DNA of 64,000 nt from Clostridia bacterium (GCA_018434325.1 JAHDPO010000023.1:1-64000); one strand, 5' to 3'; numbered from the stretch's first letter, positions 5,109 to 21,325 are shown. Notes: generated from the letters alone by a model not told the origin. Translations and numbers: made by a program.

Positions 5109-6992
5109 TTAGACCGCTCTCTGTAAAGCAGCCTCCTTCTTTTTCCGGGTTAGCTGCAAGGCAAATACGGAGGCAATTAACAGGATGCCAATGAGGTCGG
5201 TCATCCAGCCAATCAGCAGAGTCATAACGGCGGCAACGCCCATAATTACCCGTTCATACCAGGTCAGCTTTAGAATCAGGAAGCCCTGGGAGACAACGGC
5301 ATAGGCAAAAACACCGATCAGCGTGCAGAAAATCGCATACAGGATAGAAGCGGTACTGCCGATCAGCAAGAGACCCGGCATATAGACGAACAAAATAGGC
5401 ATGTAGTAAATGACAAGGCCCATACGCAGGGAAGACCAGCCGGTTTTCCAGATATCCGCTCCCGCTATAGCGGCAGCTACATAGGCGGAAAGGCAAACCG
5501 GCGGCGTGACAACGGCCAGCTGGCTGGTCCAGAAGACGAAGAAATGCGCCGTCAGTAAAGGAACCCCCAGCTGGGTCAGGGCCGGCGCCGTCAGGGTAAC
5601 CAGCAGCAGATATGCTGAAGACACATTCATGCCCATACCCAGTATGAAACTGGCCGCCATGACCAACAGCAGGGCCAGGGGCAAAAATCCGTTGGAGATC
5701 TGCATAATGATAGTGCTGATTTTCATGCCAAGTCCGGGCAGCGAGATCGCTGCAATCAGGATACCGATAGCCCCGGCGGTGTTGGCCATGGAAAGGGAAC
5801 CGATGGCGCCCTCCGACAAAGCGTCCAGGATCTCTTTTATTCCCATGCGCCTGTCCTTGGTGAGCCAGCTGACGCCAACACAGGCAACAATGGACCAGAA
5901 CCCGGCTTTCGCGGGGGAAGCGCCGATGGCAAGGTAGAACACGATGACAGCAATGGGAATAAGGTAGATCCAGCCCTTTTTAAATACCTGGGACATTTTG
6001 GGGATTTCGGTTTCCGGCAGCGGCTTTAACCCCGAGCTTTTCGCCTCCAGGTATACCATCAGCATCATGCTGATGAAAAACAAAATGGCGGAAGGCAGAC
6101 CGGCCAAGGCAACCTGGGAATAGGGGATACCAATCATCGACGCCATTAAAAAGGCGGCGGCCCCCATAATGGGAGGCATGAATTGACCGCCTATCGAAAC
6201 AACCGCTTCTATGGAAGCGGCCACGTGCCGCTTGTAACCATTTTCGATCATCAGGGGGATGCTCACCGCGCCGCTGATTGCAGCGTTGGCAGTGGATGAA
6301 CCCATGATGGAGCCAAAGATCCAACTGGAAATTACGGCTGCCTGGGCCGCTCCGCCGGCCAATCGGCCGGCCACCGCCTTGGCAACGTCAATGAAAAACT
6401 GTCCCGCACCGGATTTTTGCAGGAAGGAGCCAAAGATAATAAACAGGAATATATAAGTGGAAAAGGTGTAAACAACCGATCCAAAAATACCTTCTGTTCC
6501 GGCAAACATCACATTAACGATGCGGTTGAGACTGAATCCTTTATGCATCAGAGGTCCGGGCATATAACGCCCCACATAGCAGTATACCAAAAAGGCAGCT
6601 ACAATGATCGGCAGCGCCAGGCCAATGCAGCGCCGGCAAGCTTCCAGCACCAGCAGCAAGGTTAAGATGCCCATAAATAAATCAACCGGACCCAAAGGCA
6701 TGCCCGCATGTATCGCATAATATTGGTAGCGGCCGATAAAATAAAGGACACATCCAAGGGTGACCACCGCTAAGGCCACATCCATAACATGCAGCCACAG
6801 GGGCACCTCTTTGCCTTTTTTACGGTTCGGACTGGTGAGAAAAGCCAGGGCCAGGGCAAAAAAGATATAGCATCCCCGGCTGTACTGCGGTTCCCACACA
6901 CCAAAGGCCGCCTGGTAAATATATATGCCGGAAAATGCGGTAGCCATAATTTTGACTAATAAAGCGAGTTTAGCATTATTTGTTTTTTCCAC
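5109..6992 (-). CDS. TRAP transporter fused 4TM/12TM permease (TAXI type)
   Basis: About 627 residues carrying the small DctQ-like and large DctM-like membrane domains in one chain, as in TAXI-type TRAP systems. Family hallmarks include GSIMGSSTANAAISGAVSIP (near 235) and GMGMNVSSAYLL (near 450). Import is driven by a cation gradient with substrate delivered by the receptor encoded just upstream. The GTG at 6992 is preferred because AGAAGGAG precedes it at good spacing; an upstream in-frame GTG at 7013 lacks a ribosome site. The substrate is not readable; neighbours suggest the ring compound or its organic-acid products. Confidence 0.93.
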   Translation of the reverse strand: MEKTNNAKLALLVKIMATAFSGIYIYQAAFGVWEPQYSRGCYIFFALALAFLTSPNRKKGKEVPLWLHVMDVALAVVTLGCVLYFIGRYQYYAIHAGMPLGPVDLFMGILTLLLVLEACRRCIGLALPIIVAAFLVYCYVGRYMPGPLMHKGFSLNRIVNVMFAGTEGIFGSVVYTFSTYIFLFIIFGSFLQKSGAGQFFIDVAKAVAGRLAGGAAQAAVISSWIFGSIMGSSTANAAISGAVSIPLMIENGYKRHVAASIEAVVSIGGQFMPPIMGAAAFLMASMIGIPYSQVALAGLPSAILFFISMMLMVYLEAKSSGLKPLPETEIPKMSQVFKKGWIYLIPIAVIVFYLAIGASPAKAGFWSIVACVGVSWLTKDRRMGIKEILDALSEGAIGSLSMANTAGAIGILIAAISLPGLGMKISTIIMQISNGFLPLALLLVMAASFILGMGMNVSSAYLLLVTLTAPALTQLGVPLLTAHFFVFWTSQLAVVTPPVCLSAYVAAAIAGADIWKTGWSSLRMGLVIYYMPILFVYMPGLLLIGSTASILYAIFCTLIGVFAYAVVSQGFLILKLTWYERVIMGVAAVMTLLIGWMTDLIGILLIASVFALQLTRKKKEAALQRAV

Positions 6993-7037
6993 GGCTTGCT
7001 CCTTCTCCAACACTAGGTTGGGAAACGGTCTTACCTT

Positions 7038-8039
7038 TTACTTCAAGAGTCCGATTTCCTTGTAATACTGTTCCGCACCGGGATGCAGAGGCAGGTTAAT
7101 GGCTGCAAAGCGCTCCAGACCGGGCTGCATTTCACTGAAAGCGGCCTGGACATTCTGCAGATAGCTTTTTCCCTCATCGGAGAACATGGCCTTCAGCATT
7201 TCATAAACGATCCAGTCCTCCACGCTGGCATCGGCTACCCAAACCACCGGATAGCCCACTGTCTCCACCGGCTCGCTGAGGCTGCTGTATCCGCTGGCGG
7301 GAATGGTATAGGGAACATAGTAAGGATGATCTTTCAGGAATTTTTCCCGCACTTCGCCGTCTACCGGGATAAACTTAAGGGGCTTGGAGGCTTCCAGTTC
7401 AATCAGAGTAGGCACAGGCGTGCTGCCGCCGATAATGAGAGCATCGGTGTGCCCATCCCGCAGGGAGGAGGAAGAATCGTCAAAGCTGAGATATTGGATC
7501 GTGCATTGTTCAAAAATACCCGCCGATTTGAGGAGCTGCTCGGATACATCGGCACTGCCGGAACCCTGGGGCCCGATAGCTACCGATTTGCCGACGAGAT
7601 CCTGGAGCGTATTGATACTGGAGTTTTTGGTGGTGACAATGTTCATCGCACCGTCATGGATACCGGCCACGCCACGAATCCCATCATAGCTTTGTCCCGC
7701 AAATACGCCCGCGCCGTTTGTAATGTCGTAGGCAGTGGAGCTATAGGCAAAACCCATTTCCGTTTCACCATTGGCCAGCAGACGCATATTTTCCACAACG
7801 CCTTTTGTGGTCTCGGCGGTTACGGTAAGGCCGGGAACCTTGTCGGTAACCAATGCGGAGATGCCGGCGCCGGCAGTATAAAAAGTACCTCCCTGGCCGC
7901 TGGTGGCAAAGGCAACCGATGCAGTACGACTGTTTTGTGCCGGTTCCGAAGAACTGGGTACGCTGCCGCCTCCGCCGCAGGCGGATAATGAAAACATGGT
8001 CAGTACCAGAGAAGCAATCACCGCATATTTCTTTTTCAT
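7038..8039 (-). CDS. TAXI-family TRAP solute-binding lipoprotein
   Basis: A 333-residue receptor with a lipoprotein signal (MKKKYAVIASL, lipobox LSAC) and a glycine/serine linker. The TAXI start motif FATSGQGGTFYTAGAGIS is at about residues 49-66, followed by the usual TTKGVVENMRLLANGE. AAGGAGGG precedes the ATG. It lies 45 bp upstream of the fused permease, forming a complete TAXI-TRAP system. TAXI receptors bind small carboxylates or amino acids in characterised cases; the ligand here is unknown. Confidence 0.93.
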   Translation of the reverse strand: MKKKYAVIASLVLTMFSLSACGGGGSVPSSSEPAQNSRTASVAFATSGQGGTFYTAGAGISALVTDKVPGLTVTAETTKGVVENMRLLANGETEMGFAYSSTAYDITNGAGVFAGQSYDGIRGVAGIHDGAMNIVTTKNSSINTLQDLVGKSVAIGPQGSGSADVSEQLLKSAGIFEQCTIQYLSFDDSSSSLRDGHTDALIIGGSTPVPTLIELEASKPLKFIPVDGEVREKFLKDHPYYVPYTIPASGYSSLSEPVETVGYPVVWVADASVEDWIVYEMLKAMFSDEGKSYLQNVQAAFSEMQPGLERFAAINLPLHPGAEQYYKEIGLLK

Positions 8040-8177
8040 TATAGAAAACCCTCCTTACTGATATGATTTTACCTGTTATTAAGTTTATCAAAAAACAAAA
8101 AAATGTCTTTATTCAGAAAAACCAAAAAATTGAGGGGTCATTAGACTGATTGCACAAAAGGCCTGTTCTATAACTAT

Positions 8178-9788
8178 TTACAGGATCATTAATTGACTGA
8201 GTAAAATAAGGCCCACCAATATGGCCATCATCGCCGCCAGAGGAAAGACTTTCCTGAGAACCAGCCCTTCCTGGCCGGCGATATTTGCCGTTATGGTGCC
8301 CAAAACGATTTTGCTGGGGCTTACCATGCTGCCAATAGCGCCGCCTACTGTCTGAGCCCCTAAAATGGCGGGAGGTGCAAACCCCAGCATGGTGGCCGTA
8401 GTCATTTGGAGTTTAGCAAACAAAATGTTGGAGGACATGTTGCTGCCCGTAATAAAAGAACCCAGCATGCCGATCAGCGGCGAGCAAATCACGTATCCCT
8501 TCCCCAGTACCGATGTGATGCCTTCTGCCAGCATCATCGTCTGACCGCTGCCGCCCATAATACGGGACATGATGATAAATCCGGTGATGGAAACTGCGGA
8601 GGGAATAGTTTTAGCAACCGAGCGCCGGAAAACCTCTTTCGTACTTTCGGCGGTGAGCCAGCCCCGGCTCCTGTAATAAAAAACGCCCAACAGAGCCGAG
8701 AGCAAAATAAAAAAGCCGGCATGGGTAAAAGGGGTAAGGGGTGCAAAATGTTCTGACGCCGCAATCACATAACCATATCCGGTAGTCATAGCCGGAAACG
8801 AAAAGGACAAGGACCAGCCTCCGAGAACTCTCTCCACAGGGGAAATAAACAGGGCGCCCAGAGTTATTGCGGTGAGCACGTAATAGGGCATAAAGGCCTG
8901 ATGCATGGTCATTCCCCCAGGTTCTTCCTCCTGCTTGCCGCCGTCAAAGGATCGATCCATGATCTGACTGTTTTCACAAGCCCAAGGCTTTCGGTACAGC
9001 GCCGTTCTGCCCAGCAGCAAAACAGCGGCGATGGCAAGGCAGGAAGGGAAAAAGGCTGCCAGAATATAATTGGTTCGTGCCAGCAGCAATTCCCCGCCGC
9101 CATGGATCAGAGAAATAACCAAAACGGCAGGCAGACCTTTGCGGACCGCTGCCCAGCGCCCATAAAACCAACAGATCACCACGCCGGTAATAAAATTGAA
9201 TATCCAGAGAAAAGCCGACGCCCACATGGCGGCAAGCAGGGCGGCAGATTGATCGAAAAGCCCGGACTGGGTCAGCAGCGCATCCCAGGCCACAGCCAGC
9301 GTACCGAAGGTGTTGCCCCAGGCCTGGCCCACCAGAGGAATAATCACGGCCCATAGCGGCAATACGCCGATGCCTGCCAAAAGGGGAGCGCCAACCGCAA
9401 TGGGAACGCCAAAGCCGGTGATCCCCTGGAGAAAGCTGACAAAACCCCAGCCCATAGCCAGGATTTGCAGCAATTCATTGGGCAAAAGCTTTTGAATACC
9501 CAGCCTGAATACGGAAAATGTCTTTGCCTCGCAGGCCACTTCAAAAATCAGGATGGCAGGCCAAACCACAATCAGAACAGAAATGGCGCTCCATATGCCT
9601 TTGGCGCTTTCCATAACAATCAGCCGGTAATCCGCTTTGTAAAACGCCATGCCGACAATAATCGAAACCACGAGGCCAACCAGTGCCGCTTCCTTTGCTC
9701 CCCATTGAAAGCGGGTCATCAAAAGCAGTAATATGACGATGGGCAAAGCAGCCGCCAGCCACATCAAAAAGTTCACCGATAATTCCAT
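8178..9788 (-). CDS. LctP-type (L-lactate permease family) transporter
   Basis: A 536-residue membrane protein of the lactate permease family, with 12-14 hydrophobic segments and family motifs ITGFGVPIAVGAPLL (near 127) and GSFITGSNMSSNILFAKLQ. The start at 9788 begins MELSVNFLMW; the open frame runs 56 codons further upstream but that part overlaps the amidohydrolase gene and is not hydrophobic. It follows that gene by 13 bp, so it belongs to the same operon. The family name says lactate, but in this context a ring compound or a ring-opening product is as likely. A second, TRAP-type importer lies directly downstream. Confidence 0.87.
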   Translation of the reverse strand: MELSVNFLMWLAAALPIVILLLLMTRFQWGAKEAALVGLVVSIIVGMAFYKADYRLIVMESAKGIWSAISVLIVVWPAILIFEVACEAKTFSVFRLGIQKLLPNELLQILAMGWGFVSFLQGITGFGVPIAVGAPLLAGIGVLPLWAVIIPLVGQAWGNTFGTLAVAWDALLTQSGLFDQSAALLAAMWASAFLWIFNFITGVVICWFYGRWAAVRKGLPAVLVISLIHGGGELLLARTNYILAAFFPSCLAIAAVLLLGRTALYRKPWACENSQIMDRSFDGGKQEEEPGGMTMHQAFMPYYVLTAITLGALFISPVERVLGGWSLSFSFPAMTTGYGYVIAASEHFAPLTPFTHAGFFILLSALLGVFYYRSRGWLTAESTKEVFRRSVAKTIPSAVSITGFIIMSRIMGGSGQTMMLAEGITSVLGKGYVICSPLIGMLGSFITGSNMSSNILFAKLQMTTATMLGFAPPAILGAQTVGGAIGSMVSPSKIVLGTITANIAGQEGLVLRKVFPLAAMMAILVGLILLSQLMIL

Positions 9789-9801
9789 AGCTGCCAAGCC
9801 T

Positions 9802-10962
9802 TCAAGAGGGCATAGACAGAGGCCGTCCCCTGCGCAGAATGAAGCCCGGCTGCACCTGGGAGGCAATGACTTCGGCAGGGTTGTCTGCCGGGAAAACGGT
9901 GACGTCTGCTGCCCCGCCCACCTTGATGCCGTAATCGATCCCCAGAATCTCTGCACCGGCCTCCGTAATCATCCGCCACACACTGTCCACTTCGCCGGCA
10001 GTGTAAAAGGCCTGCAGGTAAGAGAGCAGCAGCGCCATCTGTTTAATATCCCCGCAGCCCAAAGGATTAAAGAAATCCCGGACATTGTCGGAGCCGAGGC
10101 CAAGGGGTACGCCGGCGGCAAGGAGCTTTTTCACGGGGGCCACCTGCCGGGTAGCAATTGCCGTGGGGGCAATCGTCGCTTTCAGCCCGCTGCTTTTCAA
10201 TAGGGCAAGGGCTTCCTCAAGTTCTTCTTCTGTTAAGGCAGCCAACGTACACATGTGGATTCCGTTGACCCTGCCCTGGAGCCCCCGTTCCTGCATCTGG
10301 CGGGCAAGGTAAGGCAGCAGATAGTGCTGGCGGTTGCCGGATTCATCCAGATGGAAATCGGCCTCCACATTGTATTTACAAGCCAGGTCCAAAATAAAGT
10401 CAATATGCTTTTCACCTTCGCCGCCGGTGATGGTATGCCCGCCCACCAGGTCGGCGCCCATGTTCAGGGCTTCTTCCAAGAGCTCCGGTGTTTTCCCGTC
10501 TTGGAAAATCCCTTCCTGGGCAAAGGCGGCGATTTGCAGGTGTAGAGTATCCTTGTACTTGTCCCGCAGGGCCAAAAGCGCCTCGATCCCTTTCAGGCCG
10601 ACAATCCCATCTACATCCACGTTAGTGCGCAGCGCCAGGGTTCCGGTTTTGATGGCGTGGCCGATAACCAGCTCCGCCCGCCGGGTGATGTTTTCCACGG
10701 TGAACTTCGCCTTTTCTCCGCGGGTTAAGGCGCCCTTTTCCGGCCCTGTCCCCGGGACATAGGGGCTTTGCTCGTTAAGGTGGGATTTATCAATATGGGC
10801 ATGGCAATCCACCAGGCCGGGAACAGTGATTCCACCCTTGGCATCATAGGTATGCTCCGCGTTATAGTCAAGGTTTTTTCCCATGTCGGCAATCTTACCG
10901 CCGTCCACAGCGATGTCCAGAAGCTGGCCGCCCACACAGGCGTTCTTAATTATCCATTCCAT
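9802..10962 (-). CDS. Metal-dependent amidohydrolase, cytosine deaminase/AtzC-like
   Basis: A 386-residue amidohydrolase-superfamily enzyme. The metal ligands are visible: HAHIDK (HxH) near residue 55, HLDES near 201, HMCT near 235 and the aspartate in GSDNVRDFF near 285. This layout is that of cytosine deaminase and N-isopropylammelide hydrolase (AtzC), which deaminate or hydrolyse amidine/amide groups on pyrimidine and triazine rings. The ATG at 10962 follows the ring-opening amidohydrolase stop by 4 bp with AGAGG upstream. It probably converts an amino-substituted ring to the oxo form before ring opening. The exact substrate is inference. Confidence 0.85.
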   Translation of the reverse strand: MEWIIKNACVGGQLLDIAVDGGKIADMGKNLDYNAEHTYDAKGGITVPGLVDCHAHIDKSHLNEQSPYVPGTGPEKGALTRGEKAKFTVENITRRAELVIGHAIKTGTLALRTNVDVDGIVGLKGIEALLALRDKYKDTLHLQIAAFAQEGIFQDGKTPELLEEALNMGADLVGGHTITGGEGEKHIDFILDLACKYNVEADFHLDESGNRQHYLLPYLARQMQERGLQGRVNGIHMCTLAALTEEELEEALALLKSSGLKATIAPTAIATRQVAPVKKLLAAGVPLGLGSDNVRDFFNPLGCGDIKQMALLLSYLQAFYTAGEVDSVWRMITEAGAEILGIDYGIKVGGAADVTVFPADNPAEVIASQVQPGFILRRGRPLSMPS

Positions 10963-10966
10963 CGTC

Positions 10967-12067
10967 TTAGCCCTCTGCCTTGACAATGGCTGCCACAAGG
11001 TTTGCACCTAAGGGGCCCTGGTGCTCAAAGCCTGCGGAGGCCAAAATCATGGTATCGCCAATCATTGCGCCTACAATTGCGTTGATTACCGCTTTGGCAA
11101 AAATGCCCTGATAGGCGGCAAGATAATCGGATTTCATGGTTGTGCGCCTGCCGCGAATGCTGCCCATGGCGTCGGCGCCGGCATTGATAAACACAGTTGC
11201 AACCCGCTGGGCTTCGCCTTGGGGAATGACTTCGTCAAACTTCAGACCGGCGCTTTTGAAAGCGGCCTTGGCGCCTGCCAGATCCAGAGTATCCTTCATC
11301 ACGCCGGAGCCGATGTGATATTGGCTGACGGATTTGGCGGAGTTGCCCATCAGGAGGACTTTGCAGGCCACTTGCTCGTTGCCTGCGGAGGTAGTGGCAA
11401 AATTGGAATAGAGGTTCCAGTTGCTGCAGATCGCTTCGTCGGTGACGTCGCTTTCTTGAATTTCTCCCAAGGCCAGGGCTACCCCAAGGGCACAGGCGCC
11501 CTTTGCTTTGGATCCTGCCTCGGCAAAGTTGGTGCTGACGCACTTTTTACCCCGGGAAGTAGCATCGGCAAGGCGGGCGGCAGTAAGGTTGGGGCATTTG
11601 ATGGATACGCAGTGAACATCGGCAATATCGTCGATACCGGCGTCCGCCATGGCCTCTTTGACCGCTTCGGCAACCAGCTTGACTTGAATAGCCGTGCCAT
11701 ACTCTTCCGGCAACAGAACCCGGGTCTGTTTAACGCCCACAGAAAAACGCTTCACGCCGCTTTCTGCCGCCTCCACTTCCTTGCGGGTAAACACGGTGTA
11801 ATGGGGACTCATCAGCCCGCCGGTAAGTCCGATCATCAGCATGGGGATGCGGGCGGCAACTTCGGCCCGGGAAATGCCCATTTTCTCCGAGAGCATCAAT
11901 TCAAAGGAAAGGGAACTATACCCTCTGGAATAACCATCGCCCTCTGTCTGCGCCTTAATTGCACAGATGTCCTTGGGGTCTATGACGCCGTTGTCGATCA
12001 ATTTCGCCAGTTCCGATACATCGTCGGGGCTGGCCATGGGCAAGCGGTAAACATTAACGTCGTTCAT
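10967..12067 (-). CDS. Ring-opening amidohydrolase, AtzD/barbiturase family (divergent)
   Basis: A 366-residue member of the family that opens cyanuric acid or barbituric acid rings. The three internal repeats are recognisable: KAQTEGDG and GLTGGLMSPH (first), IKCPNLT and TTSAGNEQ (second), RGRRTTM and SAGFEHQGP (third). Compared from memory with cyanurate hydrolases, the second repeat's lysine and serine are kept, but the first repeat's SGGTEG reads IGLTGG and the third repeat's lysine position reads asparagine (FINAGA). So the fold is clear while the substrate may differ. The start at 12067 has GAGGAGG upstream; a longer frame would start inside that site. Confidence 0.85.
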   Translation of the reverse strand: MNDVNVYRLPMASPDDVSELAKLIDNGVIDPKDICAIKAQTEGDGYSRGYSSLSFELMLSEKMGISRAEVAARIPMLMIGLTGGLMSPHYTVFTRKEVEAAESGVKRFSVGVKQTRVLLPEEYGTAIQVKLVAEAVKEAMADAGIDDIADVHCVSIKCPNLTAARLADATSRGKKCVSTNFAEAGSKAKGACALGVALALGEIQESDVTDEAICSNWNLYSNFATTSAGNEQVACKVLLMGNSAKSVSQYHIGSGVMKDTLDLAGAKAAFKSAGLKFDEVIPQGEAQRVATVFINAGADAMGSIRGRRTTMKSDYLAAYQGIFAKAVINAIVGAMIGDTMILASAGFEHQGPLGANLVAAIVKAEG

Positions 12068-12093
12068 TGAAAATTTCCTCCTCATTCGTTTGT

Positions 12094-13350
12094 TTATTTT
12101 AAGTATTGATCCCCATAGGCAAGAAGTGCTTGTTGAAACATGGCGAGGGGCGCCTGGGCAATTCCCGCCCCGATCATGCCTACTCCCGGTTCTTTGTTGA
12201 CGATGGCGGTATTGATGATAGGACAGATGCCGCTTTCCACCACTTTTACGATATCGATGCCGATAGGGGCTCCCCGATAATCCAGATTGGGAATGGTAAA
12301 CTGCTCGCTTTCCGAAAGGGAAATTTCGTACATATCACTTGTGTAGTTGAGGGCGTCACGATAAGTGCCGGCCCCTAAAAACCGTACGATGGCGGGAGCG
12401 GCGGCAATGGTGAAACCACCCAGGCCGGCGGTTTCCATAATTGCGCTGTCGCCGATGTCCTTATTGGCATCCTCGCTGCTATACCCGGAAAAATAGAGGC
12501 CCTTTACCGCGGCAGCCGGCGCCGTAAACCACTGTTCTCCCAGACCGCTGACCCGGATGCCGATATTGACGCCATTTCTGGCCATGGCCGTTACCATAGT
12601 CGAATGGGCTATACCGTGGGCTGCATCGGCGGAGCATTTGCTGGCCGCCATGGCAAAGTTCAGGAAAAACTGGTCGTTATTCACCGTCATAAATTTGATA
12701 ATGCTTTTCAGCGCCTCCAGCTCCCCTGGTTCGCATACATTTGCCAGCTCCGGCACAACGGTCTTAATGAAAAGGTTGGTGGAAGACGCATTGCGCATAT
12801 GAAGCTCGTCGCCCATGTTCAAAGATTGGGACATCAGATTTTTTAAATTGATGCCGCCGCAGTGGAGCACGGCTTTTTTCATCATGGGCGCCAGGGTTTC
12901 CTCGATCCATTTCAGGCGTTTAACCGTGTTGCTGCTGAAGGCGCCAAAGCGGATCACATCACCGGCGCCCTCGTTAAACGTGCTGTAGGAATAATTGCCG
13001 TTTTCTTTATTCAGCACGCAAATCAGCGGCATGGAATAAGAGGTAATCCCGGTCATCGGGCCGACGGCGCCGTAATGATGGCAGGGTTCGTATTTGATTT
13101 TACCGGAAGCAGCCATGCCCCAGGCCTCTTCATCGCTTTTGGCCAGGCCCTCATATTTTAAAACCGCGACGATAGCCCCCTTCATGGGACCGCACATCTC
13201 TTCCCAGGCAATGGGCGGGCCGGCGTGCAAAAAGGTATGCCGGTCAATCCCCAGCACTTCTCCCGCCGGTTTTACGTCAACCCAAAAGGGCATGGCGTTT
13301 TTCAGCTTTGACACCGCTTGCCGGTTCGCATTCAATAGCAGTTCTTTCAT
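12094..13350 (-). CDS. DUF1116 protein, AllG/YlbE-like (paralogue 1)
   Basis: A 418-residue DUF1116 protein carrying the family block HAGPPIAWEEMCGP near residue 42. In E. coli the homologue YlbE (AllG) works with FdrA and YlbF as oxamate carbamoyltransferase, taking carbamoyl from an oxaluric-acid-type donor to phosphate. GGGAGG precedes the ATG. It is one of two tandem DUF1116 genes here, between the second paralogue and the ring-opening enzyme. Two copies suggest a hetero-oligomer or two specificities; this is inference. Confidence 0.88.
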   Translation of the reverse strand: MKELLLNANRQAVSKLKNAMPFWVDVKPAGEVLGIDRHTFLHAGPPIAWEEMCGPMKGAIVAVLKYEGLAKSDEEAWGMAASGKIKYEPCHHYGAVGPMTGITSYSMPLICVLNKENGNYSYSTFNEGAGDVIRFGAFSSNTVKRLKWIEETLAPMMKKAVLHCGGINLKNLMSQSLNMGDELHMRNASSTNLFIKTVVPELANVCEPGELEALKSIIKFMTVNNDQFFLNFAMAASKCSADAAHGIAHSTMVTAMARNGVNIGIRVSGLGEQWFTAPAAAVKGLYFSGYSSEDANKDIGDSAIMETAGLGGFTIAAAPAIVRFLGAGTYRDALNYTSDMYEISLSESEQFTIPNLDYRGAPIGIDIVKVVESGICPIINTAIVNKEPGVGMIGAGIAQAPLAMFQQALLAYGDQYLK

Positions 13351-13381
13351 CGCACTACCATCCTCCCAAATTGGCTTTGGT

Positions 13382-14629
13382 TTACTCTATCCCTTCGTTT
13401 TCCGCAAAGGCATAAAGCGCTTCGGTAAAACAACCCAGGGGCGCCCGGACGATTCCTGCGCCAACCTGGCCGACCCCCGGTTTTTTATGGGCCATGCCGG
13501 TATTAATGGCGGGCAATATCCCGGTCTCCACAACCTTGCGGATGTCAATGGCCGTTGGTACTCCGGCAAAATCCATCGCAGGCATGGTGTAAGAACTACT
13601 GGCGCCCACAGTGATTTCCCCCATTTCCCGGGTATATTCCGCTGCCTGTCCTACGGATTCCGCGCCCACAAACCGCACAACCGCAGGGGCCGAGCCCATG
13701 GCGAAGCCTCCGATGCCGAAGGTCTCGCAAATAGCGCTGTCCCCCATGTCCGGGTTGGCGTCAGCCTCAGAATAGCCGGGAAAGTAAAGTCCCTTGGGGG
13801 TCAGGCAGGGGGCTTCGAACCAACGTTCACCCAGGGCGCTGACTTTAATGGCGAAGTTTGTACCGTTGCGGCTCATGGCCGTGACCACGGAAGAGTGAGG
13901 AATGTTTTTTACCGGATCCATGGTGGCCTTTCCTGCAGCCATAGCAAAGTTCAGGAAAAGCTGGTCGTTGCCGGTCAAATATTCGGTGATCGCTATAAGG
14001 TCGTCACCCTGGGTCACACGGACCAAATAGGGCATCAATGTGCGAACAAACAGGGAGGAGGCCGCAATGTTCCGTTGGTGCATCTCATCTCCCATAGACA
14101 GCGCCTTGGCGATGATCACCTTTAACGAGATCGGTCCGCTGATGGCCAGGGCCTTTTTCACGGCGGCGGCCAAAACTGATTCCAGCCACTTCAGGCGGGC
14201 GATAACGCTTTCGTCGTTTGCACCGAAGCGCATTACTTTACCCAGACCCTCGTTGAAGGTACTGTAAGCGAGATTGCCATAGGTTTTGTTGCGCACCTCG
14301 CACAGCGGCATAGAATAGGTGATCATTCCGGTCATTGGTCCCACACAGCCTAAGCTGTGGTTGGGCACAAACTTGATTTTGCCGGCTTCCACTATTTTTT
14401 CCGCATCCGTAAGTGTATCCGCCAAGCCCTCGTAGACAACCGCCCCCAATATGGCGCCTTTGAGCGGACCGCACATCTCCTCCCAGGCAATCGGGGGGCC
14501 GGCATGGCCGATAGTGTATTGATCCATTCCCGGAAGGGCATCCTTGGCATATTTTACATCAATCAGTTCCGGTTCTGCGTTGTTGATGATCTCCAGGGCC
14601 CTCTGGTTTGCTTGATCGATTGGGTTCAC
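13382..14629 (-). CDS. DUF1116 protein, AllG/YlbE-like (paralogue 2)
   Basis: A 415-residue paralogue of the next gene, with the same HAGPPIAWEEMCGP block and a parallel layout along its whole length (both have KHGVVTAM-like HSSVVTAMSRNG/HSTMVTAMARNG segments). It begins with GTG at 14629 after GGAGAGGAG. The tandem pair looks like an old duplication, because the two chains differ at many positions. It lies 21 bp after the 57-residue gene and 31 bp before paralogue 1, inside one operon with fdrA. Confidence 0.88.
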   Translation of the reverse strand: MNPIDQANQRALEIINNAEPELIDVKYAKDALPGMDQYTIGHAGPPIAWEEMCGPLKGAILGAVVYEGLADTLTDAEKIVEAGKIKFVPNHSLGCVGPMTGMITYSMPLCEVRNKTYGNLAYSTFNEGLGKVMRFGANDESVIARLKWLESVLAAAVKKALAISGPISLKVIIAKALSMGDEMHQRNIAASSLFVRTLMPYLVRVTQGDDLIAITEYLTGNDQLFLNFAMAAGKATMDPVKNIPHSSVVTAMSRNGTNFAIKVSALGERWFEAPCLTPKGLYFPGYSEADANPDMGDSAICETFGIGGFAMGSAPAVVRFVGAESVGQAAEYTREMGEITVGASSSYTMPAMDFAGVPTAIDIRKVVETGILPAINTGMAHKKPGVGQVGAGIVRAPLGCFTEALYAFAENEGIE

Positions 14630-14650
14630 ACAAATTCTCCTCTCCGGCAG

Positions 14651-14824
14651 TCAGCTGTTTAATTTGCGCAGGATTTCCATCAAGCGCACATCTCCCCCCG
14701 CCGGGGGCTTCCAGTCCACATGGGCGGCCCTGAGGTTTTGGTCGCACATTGCCTCAAAAAACCGTTCAAGCCCCAAATTTACGCAGATTAATTTACTGTC
14801 AAACAATTGATTGATCTCGTTCAT
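14651..14824 (-). CDS. 57-residue small protein between fdrA and DUF1116
   Basis: An uninterrupted 57-codon frame, MNEINQLFDS to RKLNS, fills the gap between fdrA and DUF1116 paralogue 2. It has AAAGGCGG upstream of its ATG, starts 16 bp after the fdrA stop and ends 21 bp before the next start. Its VNLGLERFFEAM and HVDWKPPAGG segments recall, from memory, a conserved element found with FdrA/DUF1116 proteins, where it may be fused to one of them. I infer a subunit or split domain of the carbamoyltransferase-like complex. Confidence 0.75.
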   Translation of the reverse strand: MNEINQLFDSKLICVNLGLERFFEAMCDQNLRAAHVDWKPPAGGDVRLMEILRKLNS

Positions 14825-14840
14825 GCAAACCCGCCTTTCT

Positions 14841-16388
14841 CTATTCTGCTTTTTGCTTCAAGATTTTTGCGGCCAGTAAAGCGGCTTGCTGATTACTGGG
14901 CATGACGATAGCCCCCGCATCCCGCAGAATTTTTTCCTGGCTGCCCCGATTTTGCCTATCGGCGTCGGTGCCGCAAACAGAGACAATATAGGTAATGTAG
15001 TTTTTTCCGGAGCCCCGGGCGGCATGAATGGCATCTGCGATTGCGCCGGCGGGATTTTCATGGGCTCCGTAGCCAAGCACACAATCCAGAAGCATCACCG
15101 CCACCGACTCATCCTGGGCCTCTCTTTTGATGCGCTCGGCCCGCAGGCGGGGATCGATCATGGGATGGGGCATGCCGTCGGTAAAATAATCGTCGCCCAT
15201 GTCGATGAGTGTGTTCCCCTTTGAACTTTCTACGTCTTTTAACTCATATTCCCCGTGGGCAATGTTTGAGTAAATCCCACCGATCTCTTTTTCTAACAGC
15301 AGCATGCTCTCATAACAGAGGCTGCCGCCGGAATACAGACCCCGGACATAACGCTGGCTTGCTGCATATTTTGCCCTTTCCCCTGCAACAATGCCGTCAA
15401 CGTCTTCGTCGGGCAGCTTCTGCGGTTGCCTGCCCTGGGAAAGATCTACCAGATATGACGCCGCCTCTCGCAGCGTCTCTGCAGCCACAACGCCGGCACC
15501 GGCGACCAGTTTTTCGTCTCCCCCAAGGAAGCAGGCGACTACCGGTTTCTGGAAATTCTGAATCAAATTGAGAATTCTTTGCATTACCGAAGGGGAGGGC
15601 GGCTTGGAAACAATGCCGATGACCTGGGTCTGAGGATCATTGTTTAGTGCGTTCAGCGCCAGGAGCATCATCTTGCCTCCCACTTCTTCCTTAACGTCCC
15701 GGCCGCCTGTGCCCAGGGCCTGGGAAATGCCGCCGCCCATACGGCCAATCAAAACGCTTACCTCCTGAAGACCGGTTCCTGCTGCCGCTACAACGCCAAT
15801 ATTCCCCTGGGGAACAACATTGGCAAAGCCTAACGCCGCCCCATTAACAATAGCTGTGCCGCAATCCGGCCCCATCATCAGCAGCTGATGCTCCACAGCA
15901 TAATCTTTCAGCCTGTTCTCTTCTTCAATGGAGACATTGTCGCTGAAAAGCAAAACATGCATCCCGTTTTTCATTGCTTTCATGGCCTCGTCGCCGGCAA
16001 ACTTTCCCGGCAGCGAGATTACTGCAAAATTGGGGTTGCCCAGCTGCTTGACGGCGCTTTCCAGTGTTTTGGCCCGGATCCGCTCATCGCCGGCCACAGA
16101 CTGCCGCTTATTTTCGAACTGTTCTTCTAAAACCTTAAGGGCCTGCTGAATATGATCGTCGCCTTCCCCGCGAATACCAATAACCAGATCGTTGGGCGTG
16201 ATGGATCGGGCCAATTCTTCGGTAAGAATTCCCGATTTCATCATCAGAGATTTGTTGTGGTCTGTGCCCATCATTACTGCGGCATCTTTAATCCCTTCTA
16301 CAGAAGCCAGTTTGCTGGAAAAAAGCATTAACGTAACGGAATCATAGTAAGCGTTCTGCTTATAGGTGTTGTACATAACCATTTTCAC
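14841..16388 (-). CDS. fdrA: FdrA family protein (acyl-CoA-synthetase-like; carbamoyltransferase component)
   Basis: A 515-residue FdrA protein, related to succinyl-CoA synthetase. Visible are LLMMGPDCGTAIVNG near residue 168, the glycine-rich GVVAAAGTGLQEVSVLIGRMG near 197 and GTGGRDVKEEVGG near 225. The E. coli homologue (AllF) is a subunit of oxamate carbamoyltransferase with AllG (DUF1116) and AllH (DUF2877). The GTG at 16388 follows GGGGGAGG closely; an ATG two codons later is also usable. It is first in the minus-strand run and diverges from the DUF2877 gene. The direction and donor of the reaction here are inferred. Confidence 0.9.
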   Translation of the reverse strand: MKMVMYNTYKQNAYYDSVTLMLFSSKLASVEGIKDAAVMMGTDHNKSLMMKSGILTEELARSITPNDLVIGIRGEGDDHIQQALKVLEEQFENKRQSVAGDERIRAKTLESAVKQLGNPNFAVISLPGKFAGDEAMKAMKNGMHVLLFSDNVSIEEENRLKDYAVEHQLLMMGPDCGTAIVNGAALGFANVVPQGNIGVVAAAGTGLQEVSVLIGRMGGGISQALGTGGRDVKEEVGGKMMLLALNALNNDPQTQVIGIVSKPPSPSVMQRILNLIQNFQKPVVACFLGGDEKLVAGAGVVAAETLREAASYLVDLSQGRQPQKLPDEDVDGIVAGERAKYAASQRYVRGLYSGGSLCYESMLLLEKEIGGIYSNIAHGEYELKDVESSKGNTLIDMGDDYFTDGMPHPMIDPRLRAERIKREAQDESVAVMLLDCVLGYGAHENPAGAIADAIHAARGSGKNYITYIVSVCGTDADRQNRGSQEKILRDAGAIVMPSNQQAALLAAKILKQKAE

Positions 16389-16474
16389 AAAGCCTCCCCC
16401 ACCATTTCTGTCTATATCTTTTCATAACGGCACTAAAAAAGAATCGTTTAGCTGTATGAAATACGGCGAAATAG

Positions 16475-16553
16475 ATTAGGCAAATTGCCTAATTCGGGCA
16501 AACTGTATTATTCCGGCATATCGCACAATTCGGGTACACCGCAAAAATTGTGC
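16475..16553. promoter_or_regulatory. Palindrome-rich control region between fdrA and the DUF2877 gene
   Basis: A perfect 19-bp palindrome ATTAGGCAAATTGCCTAAT is at 16475-16493. A second inverted repeat, GCACAATT...AATTGTGC, has arms at 16523-16530 and 16546-16553. AATTCGGGCAAAC and AATTCGGGTACAC recur as a direct repeat (from 16491 and 16527). These are good operator candidates for the divergent catabolic genes. PucR or an unseen regulator could bind; none is proven. Confidence 0.6.
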
Positions 16554-16596
16554 AGTTTGTGCCGCAAGACAAAGCTTTTTCGTACTGCCTGATCAG

Positions 16597-16624
16597 TTGT
16601 TTGGCGCGGGGGTTATGGTATACT
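16597..16624 (+). promoter_or_regulatory. Promoter of the DUF2877 gene
   Basis: TTGTTT (16597-16602) and TATACT (16619-16624) are 16 bp apart and lie about 30 bp before the AAAGGAG ribosome site of the DUF2877 gene. Confidence 0.6.
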
Positions 16625-16661
16625 TTAGCGAGACAGACCGGCAGAAAGGAGCAATGCGGCT

Positions 16662-17510
16662 TTGCAGATCACCAGCTATTCCGTTTACGCTCAAGGGATT
16701 TTGAGGCAGGGGAGCGTTGCGGCTGTTCATTCGGTATATCGCAATACGATTAACCTTTGGATTGGGGAAACTGTCTTGTCGCTGCAGCCTGCCGGCATAC
16801 CCCTTTCTCCCCTTTCCTTGGCAACGGATTTGTCCGCGGATCAATTTGCCTTGCTGGACGTGGCGCCAGGCGACGCCGCCAATTTCCGGGACGAAGAAAT
16901 TATCTTGGCCAAGTGGCGGTTTGCAAAATCCGGCGGGCAAATTTGGGATTCGGCCCTTACCTCTATACCGGCGCTGGCCCCTTCCGGCGCTAAACGCTGT
17001 ATGTGCAAGTTACAGGAAGGAATTGCGGCACTGGCTTATAAGGGCGGTTTTGCCGATATTGCTTTACCGACAGCGGAGGGCTGGCGGGCATCGCCGGCGG
17101 CCTGCCGTGCAATGGAGCAACTGCTCTCTGTGCGGCATTTTGCCGCAGAAAAGCGCTGGCAAGAAGCTGCCCGGTCAGCAGCGGGGCTGATTGGACTTGG
17201 GGAAGGACTCACGCCCTCCGGGGATGACTTTTTATGCGGGATGGCCGCCGGGCTCTTGATGAGACGCCAAAAGGGACAGGCCAGGGAATTCCTGGCCTGC
17301 CTGCAAGAAGAGATCTTAAATGCAGCAGAGCGAACAAACCAGATCAGCGCCTCTTTTTTGCGCAGCGCCTGTGCGGGGCATTTTAGCCCTGCCGTTTTGG
17401 CGGTGGCGGAGGGATGCTCCCACAGCAAGCTAATCGATGCATTTTCCAGGATCGGCCATAGCTCCGGCCTGGATACGCTAAATGGCATTTTGTTTTCTTT
17501 GATGCTTTAA
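16662..17510 (+). CDS. DUF2877 protein, AllH/YlbF-like
   Basis: A 282-residue DUF2877 protein with the family's signature GLGEGLTPSGDDFLCG near residue 184. In E. coli the homologue (AllH) is needed with FdrA and DUF1116 for oxamate carbamoyltransferase activity. The start is TTG at 16662, with AAAGGAG nine bases upstream; the nearby ATG at 16654 is in another frame that stops after a few codons. It is transcribed away from the fdrA operon, so the complex would be made from two divergent transcripts under shared control. Confidence 0.85.
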   Translation: MQITSYSVYAQGILRQGSVAAVHSVYRNTINLWIGETVLSLQPAGIPLSPLSLATDLSADQFALLDVAPGDAANFRDEEIILAKWRFAKSGGQIWDSALTSIPALAPSGAKRCMCKLQEGIAALAYKGGFADIALPTAEGWRASPAACRAMEQLLSVRHFAAEKRWQEAARSAAGLIGLGEGLTPSGDDFLCGMAAGLLMRRQKGQAREFLACLQEEILNAAERTNQISASFLRSACAGHFSPAVLAVAEGCSHSKLIDAFSRIGHSSGLDTLNGILFSLML

Positions 17511-17590
17511 AGACTATTGAGCAATCCAAACTCAACATTGATCATAAAACGGACCACAAAACGGATCATAACGGAGGGGAGAATCTGCAT

Positions 17591-18277
17591 ATGGGAAAAA
17601 TCAAGACGATTTTATGGGATGTGGACGGCACACTCATCGATTTCAAAGGATCGGAGAACCTTGCCTTAAGGCGGTGCTTTGAGCAAGCGGGGGTCAGTAT
17701 TACCGCTGAGCAACTGGAAATCTACAGGCAAATCAACGCTTCCTATTGGAAAAAGCTTGAGTTAGGAGAGATAACGAAACAGCGCGTGCTGTGCGGCCGG
17801 TTTGAGGACTTCTTTGCGGCCGTCCACATTAAGGGCATCGACGCCTCGCAGTTTAACGCTGCCTACCAAAAAGCTCTGGGCGAGACCGCCATCCCCAATG
17901 ACGGCGCCCTGGAGGTGTGCGCGGCACTATATGGGAAGCTGCCGCAGTACGTGGTAAGCAACGGCACCGCCATCGCCCAAAAAGGCAAGCTGGCCATCTC
18001 CGGACTCGGCAATTATATGGACAAACTGTTCATTTCAGAGGAGATTGGCTGCGAAAAGCCAGATTTGCGGTTTTTTGAAAGAAGTTTTGCGCAAATCCCT
18101 GATTTTCAAAAAGAAAGCACAATCATTGTAGGCGACTCCCTCAGCAGCGATATCCGCGGCGCAAACAACGCGGGTATTCTATGCTGCTGGTACAATCCGG
18201 AGAATCTGCCTGCGCCAAAGGATCTGCGCATCGACTATACGGTAGGCAGCTTGCTTGAAATCCCTGCTCTTTTGTAA
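17591..18277 (+). CDS. HAD-family nucleotidase, YjjG/YfnB-like
   Basis: A 228-residue HAD hydrolase with the nucleophile motif LWDVDGTLIDF at residues 8-18, motif II SNGT near 118, the lysine near EKPD and the acidic pair in VGDSLSSDI. The N-terminal stretch resembles YjjG/YfnB pyrimidine nucleotidases, which dephosphorylate dUMP and non-canonical pyrimidine nucleotides. GGAGGGGAG precedes the ATG. It follows the DUF2877 gene by 80 bp on the same strand, which would fit handling of pyrimidine-like ring compounds, though general phosphatase activity is possible. Confidence 0.82.
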   Translation: MGKIKTILWDVDGTLIDFKGSENLALRRCFEQAGVSITAEQLEIYRQINASYWKKLELGEITKQRVLCGRFEDFFAAVHIKGIDASQFNAAYQKALGETAIPNDGALEVCAALYGKLPQYVVSNGTAIAQKGKLAISGLGNYMDKLFISEEIGCEKPDLRFFERSFAQIPDFQKESTIIVGDSLSSDIRGANNAGILCCWYNPENLPAPKDLRIDYTVGSLLEIPALL

Positions 18278-18292
18278 TATGGTCCACAACAA

Positions 18293-18320
18293 AAAACCCG
18301 GTTCTTGCGAGCCGGGTTTT
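18293..18320 (+). terminator. Rho-independent terminator after the nucleotidase gene
   Basis: AAAACCCGG...CCGGGTTTT hairpin with a ten-base loop, 16 bp past the stop codon. Confidence 0.85.
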
Positions 18321-18380
18321 ACTCTGTCTTGCCTGCCGTCACATCTGCCGTCATTTCCTGCCGTTAAGGCGGGAAAACTC

Positions 18381-18476
18381 CCAATGTCATTTAGAAAGCA
18401 AAAAGTTGGCGAGTTCATGGAGCATTGGCCGGCGCCACGCCAATAGAACAATGCAGCAATGATTCCCGCTACTGCT
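18381..18476. repeat. Approximately 95-bp dispersed repeat, copy 1
   Basis: This segment matches the reverse complement of 57558-57653 at roughly 84 of 96 positions by eye. It includes the conserved block AGCATTGGCCGGCGCC and CAATAGAACAATGCAGC. One frame could encode a short peptide ending EHWPAPRQ in both copies, but copy 2 has an internal stop there, so I treat it as a non-coding relic, perhaps of a mobile element. Confidence 0.7.
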
Positions 18477-18521
18477 GTTAGTGGACCCTTGGCGGGGCAC
18501 TGACCTCCTGACGGCGGCACT

Positions 18522-18743
18522 TGTACAAAAATTGCGGTTGTGGTCAATTGCCTGGGGCAAGGTGTACAAAAATTACGGTTGTAGGTAAAATGCAGGGGAA
18601 GTATTCCCTCACAACCGAAGAAATTGCACAAAATAGCCTGAGATTGGCTAAAATAGGCCTCAGCTGCTGCTGCAATTCACCCACAAACGTAAAAATTGTA
18701 CAGACCGAATCCAGGATCTGCATACAAACGAAAAAATTGTACA
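18522..18743. mobile_element. 222-bp MITE-like element with paired terminal repeats
   Basis: Each end carries two copies of a 20-bp motif, and the spacing is exactly 41 bp at both ends. On the left TGTACAAAAATTGCGGTTGT (18522) and TGTACAAAAATTACGGTTGT (18563) point inward; on the right ACAAACGTAAAAATTGTACA (18683) and ACAAACGAAAAAATTGTACA (18724) are in reverse orientation. The outer ends are TGTACA...TGTACA. No transposase lies inside. The layout resembles paired transposase-binding sites at transposon ends beginning TGT. No clear target duplication is visible. Confidence 0.7.
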
Positions 18744-18846
18744 TCTGCGCTCCATGACACAGGCGGTCACTGCCCTGACACTTCCCGCTTTTTCACTTGA
18801 CCCAATCATGACATTGGGAAAACCCCCACCCCTTTTGGCTGCTATT

Positions 18847-20307
18847 TTATAAATGCTTTTTGATGGTGTCGTAGTTCACCGCCAGCTGCAGGAGGCCTTT
18901 CGTCCGCAGCCGGGGAAAAAGAGCAAATTTCCAATACTGCTTATCATGCTGGGCCACCTTAATGGGTGAAATAAACTCCTTCACCTTGCCCTCAAGCATG
19001 TCCCCGTATAGCGGGCGCAGCTTCGGCATATTGAGGCCGACCTGGCTGGGGTGAGTGCAGATTTTCACCACGCCGGCGGCATCGGTGACACTGAGCAAAT
19101 CGATACCCAATTCTTTTTGTATTGTCTTCAAATCCTGGTCCTCAATGGCCTGTTTTATATCTAATTGCTGCAGGCGCTGCCCTGCCTTCAGCATCAACAA
19201 TTCTAAGGTTTTCGAGTTGATGGCCTGCTGCAGCTCATCACTTTGATGGCGCAAGCCTTCGGTTAGACCGGCGATCTCCTGAATGGACGCCGTTTGCTGC
19301 TGCGTGGCGGAGGCCACTTCCTCGCTGGCTGCCGAAGTATTGGCGGTGGTGCCCTTCAAATAGTCTATGGCTTCCGCTATATGTTCGGACTTATTCAGCA
19401 GCCCCTCGGCATACTGCTTAAGGCTGGAAAACTCCTGGTCGGTCTTATTAATGGAAGAGGTAATGGTATTCAACGTATCGCCGGTAACATGGATGACCTT
19501 ATTGCCGGTATCCACCATCTGCTTAACCTCGTTCATCATGGTCACAGCCTGCTGAATTTCCTGCTGGATGCCGCTGACGATGACGATGATATCCTGGCCG
19601 GAACGTCCCGATTGATCGGCCAAAATCCTTACTTCATCCGCCACTACGGCAAAACCCTTGCCCTGCTCGCCGGCCCTGGCCGCCTCGATGGCGGCATTCA
19701 GTGCCAGCAGATTGGTTCTCCTGGCGATGTCCGTTATTACCTCTACGACCTGAGCGATCTTTTCTGATTGGATAGCCAAGTTATGGGAGATCTCCAGCAT
19801 GCTGTCTACGCCATCCTTGATCTGCCCGATCTGCTTCACGGCCTGGCCGGCGGCATCGCTGCCCTCCCGGGCCTTGACCATGGACTCGCCGGAAGCGGCG
19901 GCGGCTTTTTCTACCGCGGCAACCTGCCCGGCAACCAAATCCTTCACTGCTGTGGCCGATACCGCTACCGTTTCGATTTGCTGCTGCTGGGTCAGCATAT
20001 CCCTGGTTATGCTTTCCGTGCTCTGAGCCACTTCCCGGGTAGAGATAGCTATGTCCTTAACGGTCTCCTCCAGCTTCGTCGTGGCTTTAAGCACATCCAA
20101 AGCCATACTCATCACTTGATCATTGCATGATTTGCCTGCCGGGCCTGCCGAATCGTCTCCCTTTGTATTCTGGCGCCCTTGTCTTAGAAGGAGAAAAATT
20201 GTCAAGCCTGCACAGAAAACAGCCAATCCGATGCCCAAAAGCCAGGAGAACTTGGCCGCCAAAACGGGAATAAGTACCACACTCCCAACGTAGATGAATC
20301 TGCTCAA
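18847..20307 (-). CDS. Methyl-accepting chemotaxis protein with C-terminal sensor-like region
   Basis: A chemoreceptor of about 486 residues. Two hydrophobic segments sit at the N-terminus (about 5-20 and 25-45) with almost no external loop. Then comes the MCP signalling coiled coil with the conserved hairpin tip [20 protein letters not shown] near residue 208. A C-terminal domain of roughly 110 residues follows ([20 protein letters not shown]...), resembling a Cache/PAS sensor placed in the cytoplasm. TTG at 20307 is preferred since GGAGGGAG lies just before it; the GTG at 20322 overlaps that site. Monocistronic; ligand unknown. Confidence 0.88.
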
Positions 20308-20640
20308 TTTTGCTCCCTCCACTATTTTAATAGTTTAGCAATTCAGCATCCAGGGAATTGCTCTCCTTATTATCGCTTATTATGACAATTATTTAAAGTG
20401 TAAAATAGCAAATTTAATGTTTTTTTGATTTATTTATAAAGAAGAAGTGCCCTTTCAGGCGCTCAATCAGAAAACCCTTAGTCTATGTTAAGAAATTGGA
20501 TGTTGTTTTCTCCGTATTAATTATCATAATATTTTGTCTAATATTAATTTCTGTCCCATAAGTAAATACGACGCCCTCATTCTACCGCTGTCATCCGACT
20601 ACTTTGCCGGAACATGTAACCCGCACTTGGTCATTTTTGC

Positions 20641-20752
20641 GCAAAATTGCAAGTTTAAAGTGTACTATTACCCTAAAAATAGAATTTTTAACTGTTAACA
20701 GGCCAAAACCGCCCAAAAGCGGGGTGCGGACACTTTAAACTTGCAATTTTGC
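20641..20752. repeat. Inverted-repeat element with 23-bp perfect arms, copy 1
   Basis: The arms at 20641-20663 (starting GCAAAATTGCAAGTTTAAAG) and 20730-20752 are perfect reverse complements around 66 bp. The left arm plus flank CATTTTTGC recurs at 42331. The core differs between copies. It lies in the 600-bp gap upstream of the chemoreceptor; the rest of that gap (20323-20640) is AT-rich and shows nothing I can name. Probably a small non-autonomous element. Confidence 0.75.
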
Positions 20753-20858
20753 TCATTTGCCAAGGTTAGCATGCATTAACCAGATGCCGCCAACTAACGG
20801 CGGATAGGCAATAAAAGCACAACCTATTTCAAGGCCTGCAATTTCTATATGTAAATAA

Positions 20859-20882
20859 GCCCGACGCCAAATAGCGCCGGGC
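20859..20882 (-). terminator. Terminator of the rplM-rpsI operon
   Basis: GCCCG-A-CGC/GCG-C-CGGGC hairpin with one mismatch, followed on the minus strand by TTATTTA, 48 bp past the rpsI stop. Confidence 0.75.
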
Positions 20883-20929
20883 CCATTGTATAACTTGAAT
20901 ATTGTCGATAAAGCTGACTGCCGAAAAAA

Positions 20930-21325
20930 CTATCTCTTGGAGAACTGGGGAGCTCTACGGGCGCCTTTGAGGCCGTATTTCTTACGCTCTTTCATTCTGG
21001 GATCACGGGTGAGGAAGCCGGCTTTCTTCAGGGAAGGACGCATTTCGGCGTCTGCCTTGAGCAAAGCTCTGGCGATACCCAGACGGATAGCGCCGGCCTG
21101 ACCGGTGATACCGCCGCCTTTAACGGTGGCCATGATATCGTATCTGCCTTCGGTCTTCGTCAGAACCAGAGGCTGCTTTACTACCATCTCCAAAGTCTTT
21201 TTACCGAAGTACTCGGTAAGGGGACGCTTATTGATTAATACTTTGCCTTCCCCGGGAATCAGCCGAACCTGGGCCACGGAGGTTTTCCGACGGCCAGTAC
21301 CTCTGTATTGGATTGCTTGAGCCAT
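20930..21325 (-). CDS. rpsI: 30S ribosomal protein S9
   Basis: A 131-residue S9 protein. The opening [16 protein letters not shown], the central [19 protein letters not shown] and the basic C-terminus ending in [17 protein letters not shown] are diagnostic. It follows rplM by 20 bp, the usual order in bacteria. The final SKR tail reaches the P-site tRNA in known ribosomes. Length is normal. Confidence 0.98.

Follow-up and report, generated by a model that had tools for sequence, protein, structure and literature searches.

A putative energy-conserving route for cyclic amide degradation, linking an AtzD-family hydrolase to an AllFGH-type carbamoyltransferase in a Clostridia bacterium

The 64,000-nucleotide stretch of DNA analysed here (Clostridia bacterium, GCA_018434325.1 JAHDPO010000023.1:1-64000; termed the window, with coordinates counted from its first letter) carries a minus-strand operon in which genes of an AllFGH-type carbamoyltransferase stand beside a gene for a ring-opening hydrolase of the AtzD family. 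We consider it likely that this operon serves the anaerobic degradation of a small N-heterocycle while saving the energy of the last C-N bond, the ring being opened by the AtzD-like hydrolase and the product being subjected to phosphorolysis by the AllFGH-like complex. For the broader proposal, that AtzD, AllFGH phosphorolysis and carbamate kinase form a third, energy-conserving route for cyanurate-type rings in anaerobes and plasmid cassettes, and that the hydrolase clade of the window represents a new enzyme of the Toblerone fold, its substrate being a new, asymmetric ring, the case for and the case against appear evenly balanced.

All genes named in a first-pass annotation of positions 9802-18277 were found at the place and on the strand given there. 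The minus-strand order is AllF, a 57-residue gene, AllG1, AllG2, the AtzD-family hydrolase, an amidohydrolase, an LctP-family permease, a TAXI-TRAP binding protein, a TRAP fused permease and PucR; AllH and a YjjG-type nucleotidase are encoded on the opposite (plus) strand. Neighbours among the first seven minus-strand genes (AllF through LctP) are about 5-32 bp apart, and most of these genes are preceded by a purine-rich Shine-Dalgarno-like stretch, with AGGAGG before the ATG of the AtzD-family gene. The operon probably extends past the amidohydrolase to the LctP-family permease, the TAXI-TRAP genes and PucR (down to position 3241).

The ring-opening hydrolase (10967-12067, minus strand; PF09663, 4.8e-121; TIGR02714, 338 bits with a cut-off of 153) is the only AtzD of this genome. 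It is 46-48% identical to the Moorella-type cyanuric acid hydrolase (6bum), and its AlphaFold model (predicted local distance difference test score 88) superimposes on 6bum with a template-modelling (TM) score of 0.94. In phylogenetic trees it belongs to a clade with full support (100/100) and a long stem, whose placement beside the cyanurate-type enzymes of Bacillota is less firmly supported. The nine clade sequences, which are 71-83% identical to the window protein, are characterized by a set of substitutions, K42Q, S85I, R195K, K296N and G345A (AtzD numbering), found in all nine members, window included, so that two of the three Ser-Lys dyads are dismantled throughout the clade. This combination is absent from all 34 other AtzDs aligned. 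A four-residue deletion follows the first dyad Lys, and the equivalent of Glu301, a position assigned from the alignment, is replaced by Gly; mutation of Glu301 in the Moorella enzyme lowers stability via the Ca2+ site (PMC6557486). The catalytic Lys162 and Ser233 (AtzD numbering) are retained together with Glu, corresponding to Ser226-Lys156 and Glu230 in Azorhizobium caulinodans numbering, a set that is absolutely conserved in the family and has been proposed to be catalytic (PMC4051656). In published mutants with changes at the corresponding Ser and Lys residues, activity is reduced about 10^4 to 10^8-fold (PMC4051656) or is zero (PMC3758960).

The cyanuric acid hydrolase signature (three Ser-Lys dyads plus Arg195 and Gly345) is thus found neither in the window AtzD nor in the other clade members. 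The barbiturase signature (Asn195, His321, Lys325 and Val345; PMC3758960) is also lacking, as the window protein has Lys195 and Ala345; barbiturase-signature proteins in the alignment keep all three dyads. Since the clade has lost two dyads and carries neither signature, the window AtzD is, judged by its residues, probably neither a cyanurate hydrolase nor a barbiturase of the known type, and it probably acts on a different cyclic amide of lower symmetry. In the PDB, the same Toblerone fold is already represented by barbiturase and orotic acid hydrolase, and new specificities are therefore plausible. The first-pass annotation had assigned a cyanurate- or barbiturate-type substrate and a biuret-type product to the window enzyme, which the residue changes do not bear out. 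The NCBIfam cyanuric acid hydrolase equivalog NF052395 was dropped as a specificity test: the window protein scores 348.8 against a cut-off of 360 and its relatives 359-372, some of them above the cut-off, while a barbiturase-signature protein scores 442, making the model non-discriminating.

The AllF, AllG and AllH families are all represented in profile searches. AllF (14841-16388, minus strand) matches NF004760 (FdrA) with 511 bits, above the cut-off of 433, and is 44% identical to E. coli YahF and 38% to E. coli AllF. AllG1 (13382-14629) and AllG2 (12094-13350), both on the minus strand, match PF06545 (DUF1116; 1.7e-84 and 2.4e-85, respectively); AllG1 is 50% identical to E. coli AllG, and the AllGs overall 45-50%. 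The two are old paralogues: AllG1 forms a clade of its own in the tree, their split is older than the divergence of the clade, both have been inherited together, and the duplication is specific to the window clade. AllH (16662-17510, plus strand; PF11392, DUF2877, 1.2e-23) is divergent from the operon; in relatives it lies directly upstream of AllF on the same strand. The 57-residue protein (14651-14824, minus strand) is 51-53% identical to equally separate genes in two related loci (L060 and L061) and to the AllG N-terminus of other relatives, and is weakly similar to the C-terminus (514-554) of E. coli AllF. By this similarity the gene is a detached AllG domain of the carbamoyltransferase complex, and in the window lineage a single copy may serve both AllG paralogues. 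In the trees, the AtzD-linked AllF and AllG proteins group separately from E. coli AllFG and YahFG, in clades of their own.

A second AllF-AllG locus is present elsewhere in the genome (L019, G000:C58:75000-93000, positions 1723-8837). It is closest to E. coli YahFG (YahG, 70%), and its other genes encode an AbgT-type transporter, two YahJ-like amidohydrolases and an ankyrin/TPR protein; yahD of E. coli, too, is an ankyrin-repeat gene.

The link between AtzD and the carbamoyltransferase extends well beyond the window. Among 398 genomes of the phylum, AtzD occurs in 12 and AllG in 59, and a co-occurrence check proposed in the first-pass annotation showed both in ten of the 12 AtzD genomes, with 1.8 expected (Fisher p 1.3e-7); counted by genus, the two coincide in eight of ten (p 1.5e-5). 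Where both occur they are mostly neighbours, often together with carbamate kinase. The gene set is found again in at least 14 further Bacillota loci and on enterobacterial plasmids, AllF, AllG and AtzD being adjacent, usually with AllH, in Erysipelotrichaceae, Oscillospiraceae, Moorella-type and other Bacillota loci. None of these neighbours accompanies the AtzDs of alpha- and betaproteobacteria (31-41% identical), apart from occasional amidohydrolase relatives. The YjjG-type gene (17591-18277, plus strand), which the first-pass annotation had listed as divergent from the run, was not found in related neighbourhoods and was rejected as a pathway member; it is a bystander. Two loci (L065, G345:C1:2282000-2300000, and L062) may represent a third variant: their distant AtzD, of the Thr345/Arg346 type, has an AtzE-like amidase and a xanthine dehydrogenase-like protein close by, and is separated by about 12 kb from an AtzC-like amidohydrolase and a divergent AllG-like gene.

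An experimental anchor is given by the Moorella-type sister cluster L053, in which the AtzD is almost identical to the crystallised cyanuric acid hydrolase 6bum, differing in a few short stretches. The order there is PucR, a permease-like protein, AllH, AllF, AllG, AtzD, YdcZ, an NCS2 permease and carbamate kinase; the genes for an AllFGH-type complex and a carbamate kinase are thus neighbours of one for a proven cyanuric acid hydrolase. Among plasmids, a tblastn search yielded 132 records with AtzD relatives. In the one plasmid that was inspected, NZ_CP056596.1 of Citrobacter freundii (9398-23682; L068 and L069), a permease-like protein, AtzD, an NCS2 permease, AllH, AllF, AllG, carbamate kinase and a LysR regulator lie between IS26 transposases. 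The plasmid AtzD is 74% identical to that of Moorella and has the full cyanurate signature. This cassette stretch is matched by 50 plasmid records, the match covering 80% or more of the stretch in 47 of them. The hosts include Citrobacter, Klebsiella, Enterobacter, Leclercia, Raoultella, Aeromonas and Shewanella, and some were isolated from shower or hospital-swab samples. The cassette is missing from every complete E. coli genome of the collection, but one E. coli plasmid record has a match. No amidohydrolase is present in the cyanuric acid hydrolase-type clusters of Moorella and the inspected plasmid, and the minimal set is therefore AtzD, AllFGH and carbamate kinase.

Two further observations concern clusters of this type. 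A family of membrane proteins of about 411-417 residues (L053:12526-13761; L054-L058, L068), with at most a weak DctM match, is encoded in all cyanuric acid hydrolase-type AllFG clusters and in the plasmid cassette, and not in the window type; it is a candidate new transporter family. In another locus (L058:5211-7203) such an AtzD is found next to a biuret hydrolase-like gene, with AllH and AllF, and the AllFGH complex there may act on allophanate.

The role that the first-pass annotation gave to carbamate kinase gains support from related clusters. In the nearest relative by AtzD (L032, 83%), a carbamate kinase gene (410 bits, cut-off 358) lies between LctP and AtzD; the enzyme is also encoded in the clusters L053-L056 and L060, and in seven of the nine genomes tested its gene lies no more than about 11 kb from AtzD. 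Hydrolytic alternatives for the step after ring opening were rejected. In nine cluster genomes neither allophanate hydrolase nor urease was found above cut-off, the latter being above it in G345 only, and a good match to biuret hydrolase was present in G185 only (281 bits, cut-off 370); in the window genome neither biuret hydrolase (BiuH) nor AtzF was found above cut-off. Since these downstream hydrolases are missing there, the AllFGH complex is the candidate that suggests itself for acting on the ring-opened product in Moorella and in the window genome. The best matches to allantoinase and AllD in the window genome score 268 bits (cut-off 358) and 235 bits (cut-off 496), in line with the earlier view that this is not the known allantoin pathway.

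The amidohydrolase of the window (9802-10962, minus strand; PF07969, 4.2e-24) had been described as CodA/AtzC-like; AtzC is in fact the nearest solved relative (206 bits), ahead of the cytosine deaminase CodA (about 114 bits). Its metal-site motifs HAH, HLDE, H and SDN align with those of AtzC, the HxH, His and Asp ligands and the catalytic His being present (AtzC residues according to PMC4577212), and the enzyme is probably a deaminase. Relatives carry an amidohydrolase (51-64% identity) directly after AtzD, and three of them (L023, L025 and L032) have an extra second one, of the TRZ/ATZ type, which may point to a ring bearing two or more substituents that can be removed. The LctP-family transporter (lactate/glycolate permease-like; 8178-9788; PF02652, 8.1e-67) is 51-57% identical to those in the relatives' clusters. 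The TAXI-family TRAP solute-binding protein (7038-8039; TIGR02122, 241 bits) and the TRAP fused permease (5109-7013; TIGR02123, 582 bits) are 59-63% and 58-59% identical, respectively, to their counterparts in L021, L023 and L025. The PucR-type regulator (3241-5013; PF07905, 1.4e-30, and PF13556), like the transporter genes on the minus strand, has counterparts flanking most related clusters.

From the observed gene content, conservation and residue changes we infer the following reactions, in an order that is itself a proposal. Substrate and products would be transported by the TRAP and/or LctP-family permeases, and the AtzC-like amidohydrolase would take off an exocyclic amino (or other) group, deamination being tentatively placed first. 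The AtzD-like hydrolase, using the Ser233-Lys162-Glu site only, would then open the cyclic amide to a carboxylate bearing an N-carbamoyl group; the ring is probably asymmetric, and neither cyanurate nor barbiturate. Isouramil and dialurate, pyrimidines of the vicine type, were weighed as candidate substrates, the observations pointing neither towards nor away from them. AllF, AllG1, AllG2 and AllH would pass the carbamoyl moiety on to phosphate, in analogy to the reaction oxalurate + Pi -> oxamate + carbamoyl phosphate, and carbamate kinase (encoded elsewhere in the window genome, and in the operon in L032) would yield ATP, CO2 and NH3. For the sister clusters of Moorella and plasmids, whose AtzD is a true cyanuric acid hydrolase, AllFGH would be expected to act on carboxybiuret, biuret or allophanate. 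Oxalurate, ureidomalonate and carboxybiuret share the terminal unit -CO-NH-CO-NH2. Phosphorolysis of the AtzD product would therefore be a small chemical step from the oxalurate reaction, in which E. coli AllFGH has been proven to form carbamoyl phosphate (PMC11326118).

Several points weigh against this proposal. We know of no AllFGH activity outside oxalurate metabolism. The carbamate kinase lies outside the window operon, and the single above-cut-off copy of the genome (arcC) sits in a purine cluster with YgeW, diaminopropionate ammonia-lyase, YgeY, SsnA and YgfK (L020, G000:C9:64000-82000), which it may serve instead. Finally, in the order sampled, AtzD is found in the window genome only (one of 25), its absence from the other 24 suggesting acquisition.

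Two other explanations are unlikely, to about the same degree. One is a barbiturase-like pyrimidine route, from barbiturate via ureidomalonate to malonamate and carbamoyl phosphate: on chemical grounds ureidomalonate, which is oxalurate plus one CH2, would be a natural substrate for an AllFGH-like complex, and S85I with G345A gives one side of the pocket a more hydrophobic character, an effect that G345V has in barbiturase (PMC3758960), but the Asn195/Val345 signature is missing, and proteins that do carry it retain all three dyads. The other holds that AllFGH is an ordinary oxalurate carbamoyltransferase and that the ring enzymes produce oxalurate, for example from a parabanate-like ring. This would fit the homology of the subunits to the oxalurate enzyme and the purine-degradation cluster in the genome, but not the lack of allantoinase and AllD above cut-off, the separate clades of the AtzD-linked AllF and AllG, or the clade-specific AllG duplication. 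Still less probable is a plain cyanuric acid pathway (ammelide to cyanurate to carboxybiuret) with an AtzD that is ordinary despite its changes: the AtzC-like and AtzD-like pair resembles the triazine pathway, sister clusters have a true cyanuric acid hydrolase, and the NF052395 score is close to its cut-off (349 against 360) and above it in some clade members, but that model also accepts a barbiturase-signature protein, the equivalents of Lys42, Ser85, Arg195 and Lys296 are replaced throughout the clade, and published Ser and Lys mutants are nearly or wholly inactive on cyanurate (PMC4051656, PMC3758960). That the neighbourhood is coincidental, or that the AllFGH-like proteins are unrelated to the ring-opened product, is very improbable: E. 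coli YahFG-type relatives lack a known function and genome G239 has AtzD and biuret hydrolase but no AllG, yet the association is statistically supported, and the combination recurs in parallel in Moorella, Erysipelotrichaceae and Oscillospiraceae and on plasmids, more than once together with carbamate kinase.

Elsewhere in the window, one minus-strand run (21981-25231) comprises an HMGL-like gene of the homocitrate/isopropylmalate synthase type, a GntR-FCD regulator and a gene of the isocitrate/isopropylmalate dehydrogenase family. Positions 40999-45269 are occupied by pyrC and, judging from the sequence, apparently by pyrF, pyrK and pyrD, all of them ordinary genes of pyrimidine biosynthesis; an apparent in-frame TGA in the dihydroorotase match (41071-42315) was rejected, this being an ordinary pyrC ending at its stop.

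Two cyanurate routes have been described in the accessible literature, both hydrolytic (PMC6219798) and without ATP gain, from which a phosphorolytic route would differ. Ring opening followed by AllFGH phosphorolysis, if true, would explain ring use by Moorella-type organisms that have a proven cyanuric acid hydrolase and lack the usual downstream hydrolases, and would make AllFGH a general module for ureido acids, beyond allantoin breakdown. The window clade can be regarded as a natural experiment, in which a single catalytic site is left of a threefold-symmetric active site. To judge from the plasmid cassettes, the trait appears to be spreading today in hospital and water Enterobacterales, and chlorinated isocyanurate disinfectants may be a source of the cyanurate. 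A search of the open literature for a link of AtzD with AllFGH, or of cyanurate with carbamate kinase, gave PMC12625717 only and no paper joining AtzD to AllFGH; it left subscription literature aside, where an earlier mention of the Moorella neighbourhood is possible.

The closest published case is that of comammox and archaeal allFGHK genes beside biuret and triuret genes (PMC12625717), which likewise places AllFGHK next to a cyanurate-related pathway; no AtzD was found there, and its authors interpret it as oxalurate use. The E. coli allantoin branch of AllFGH, the oxamic transcarbamylase, and the carbamate kinase AllK (PMC11326118, PMC9843812) has the same three subunit families and the same carbamate kinase logic, whereas the window has no allantoin genes, two AllGs, a detached 57-residue domain and an attached ring-opening hydrolase. 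The E. coli yahEFG-yahI-yahJ operon similarly combines AllH, AllF, AllG, carbamate kinase and an amidohydrolase, and its YahF is close to the window AllF (44%); it lacks AtzD, however, YahJ is only 28% identical to the window amidohydrolase, and the true YahFG counterpart of the window genome is the separate locus on C58. The Pseudomonas ADP atzC and atzDGEHF genes and the Rhizobium biuret pathway (PMC6219798) share AtzC-like and AtzD-like enzymes with the window, but proceed hydrolytically through AtzE or BiuH and AtzF, with zero ATP gain. Barbiturase and orotic acid hydrolase (5hwe, 5hy0) have the same Toblerone fold, with a TM score of about 0.9 to the window model, orotic acid hydrolase being compared by fold alone; the barbiturase signature is absent from the window AtzD. 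The 6bum cluster of Moorella has the AtzD family, the order AllH-AllF-AllG-AtzD and carbamate kinase in common with the system proposed here, but differs from the window in its three intact Ser-Lys dyads, its NCS2 permease, its single AllG and its lack of an amidohydrolase.

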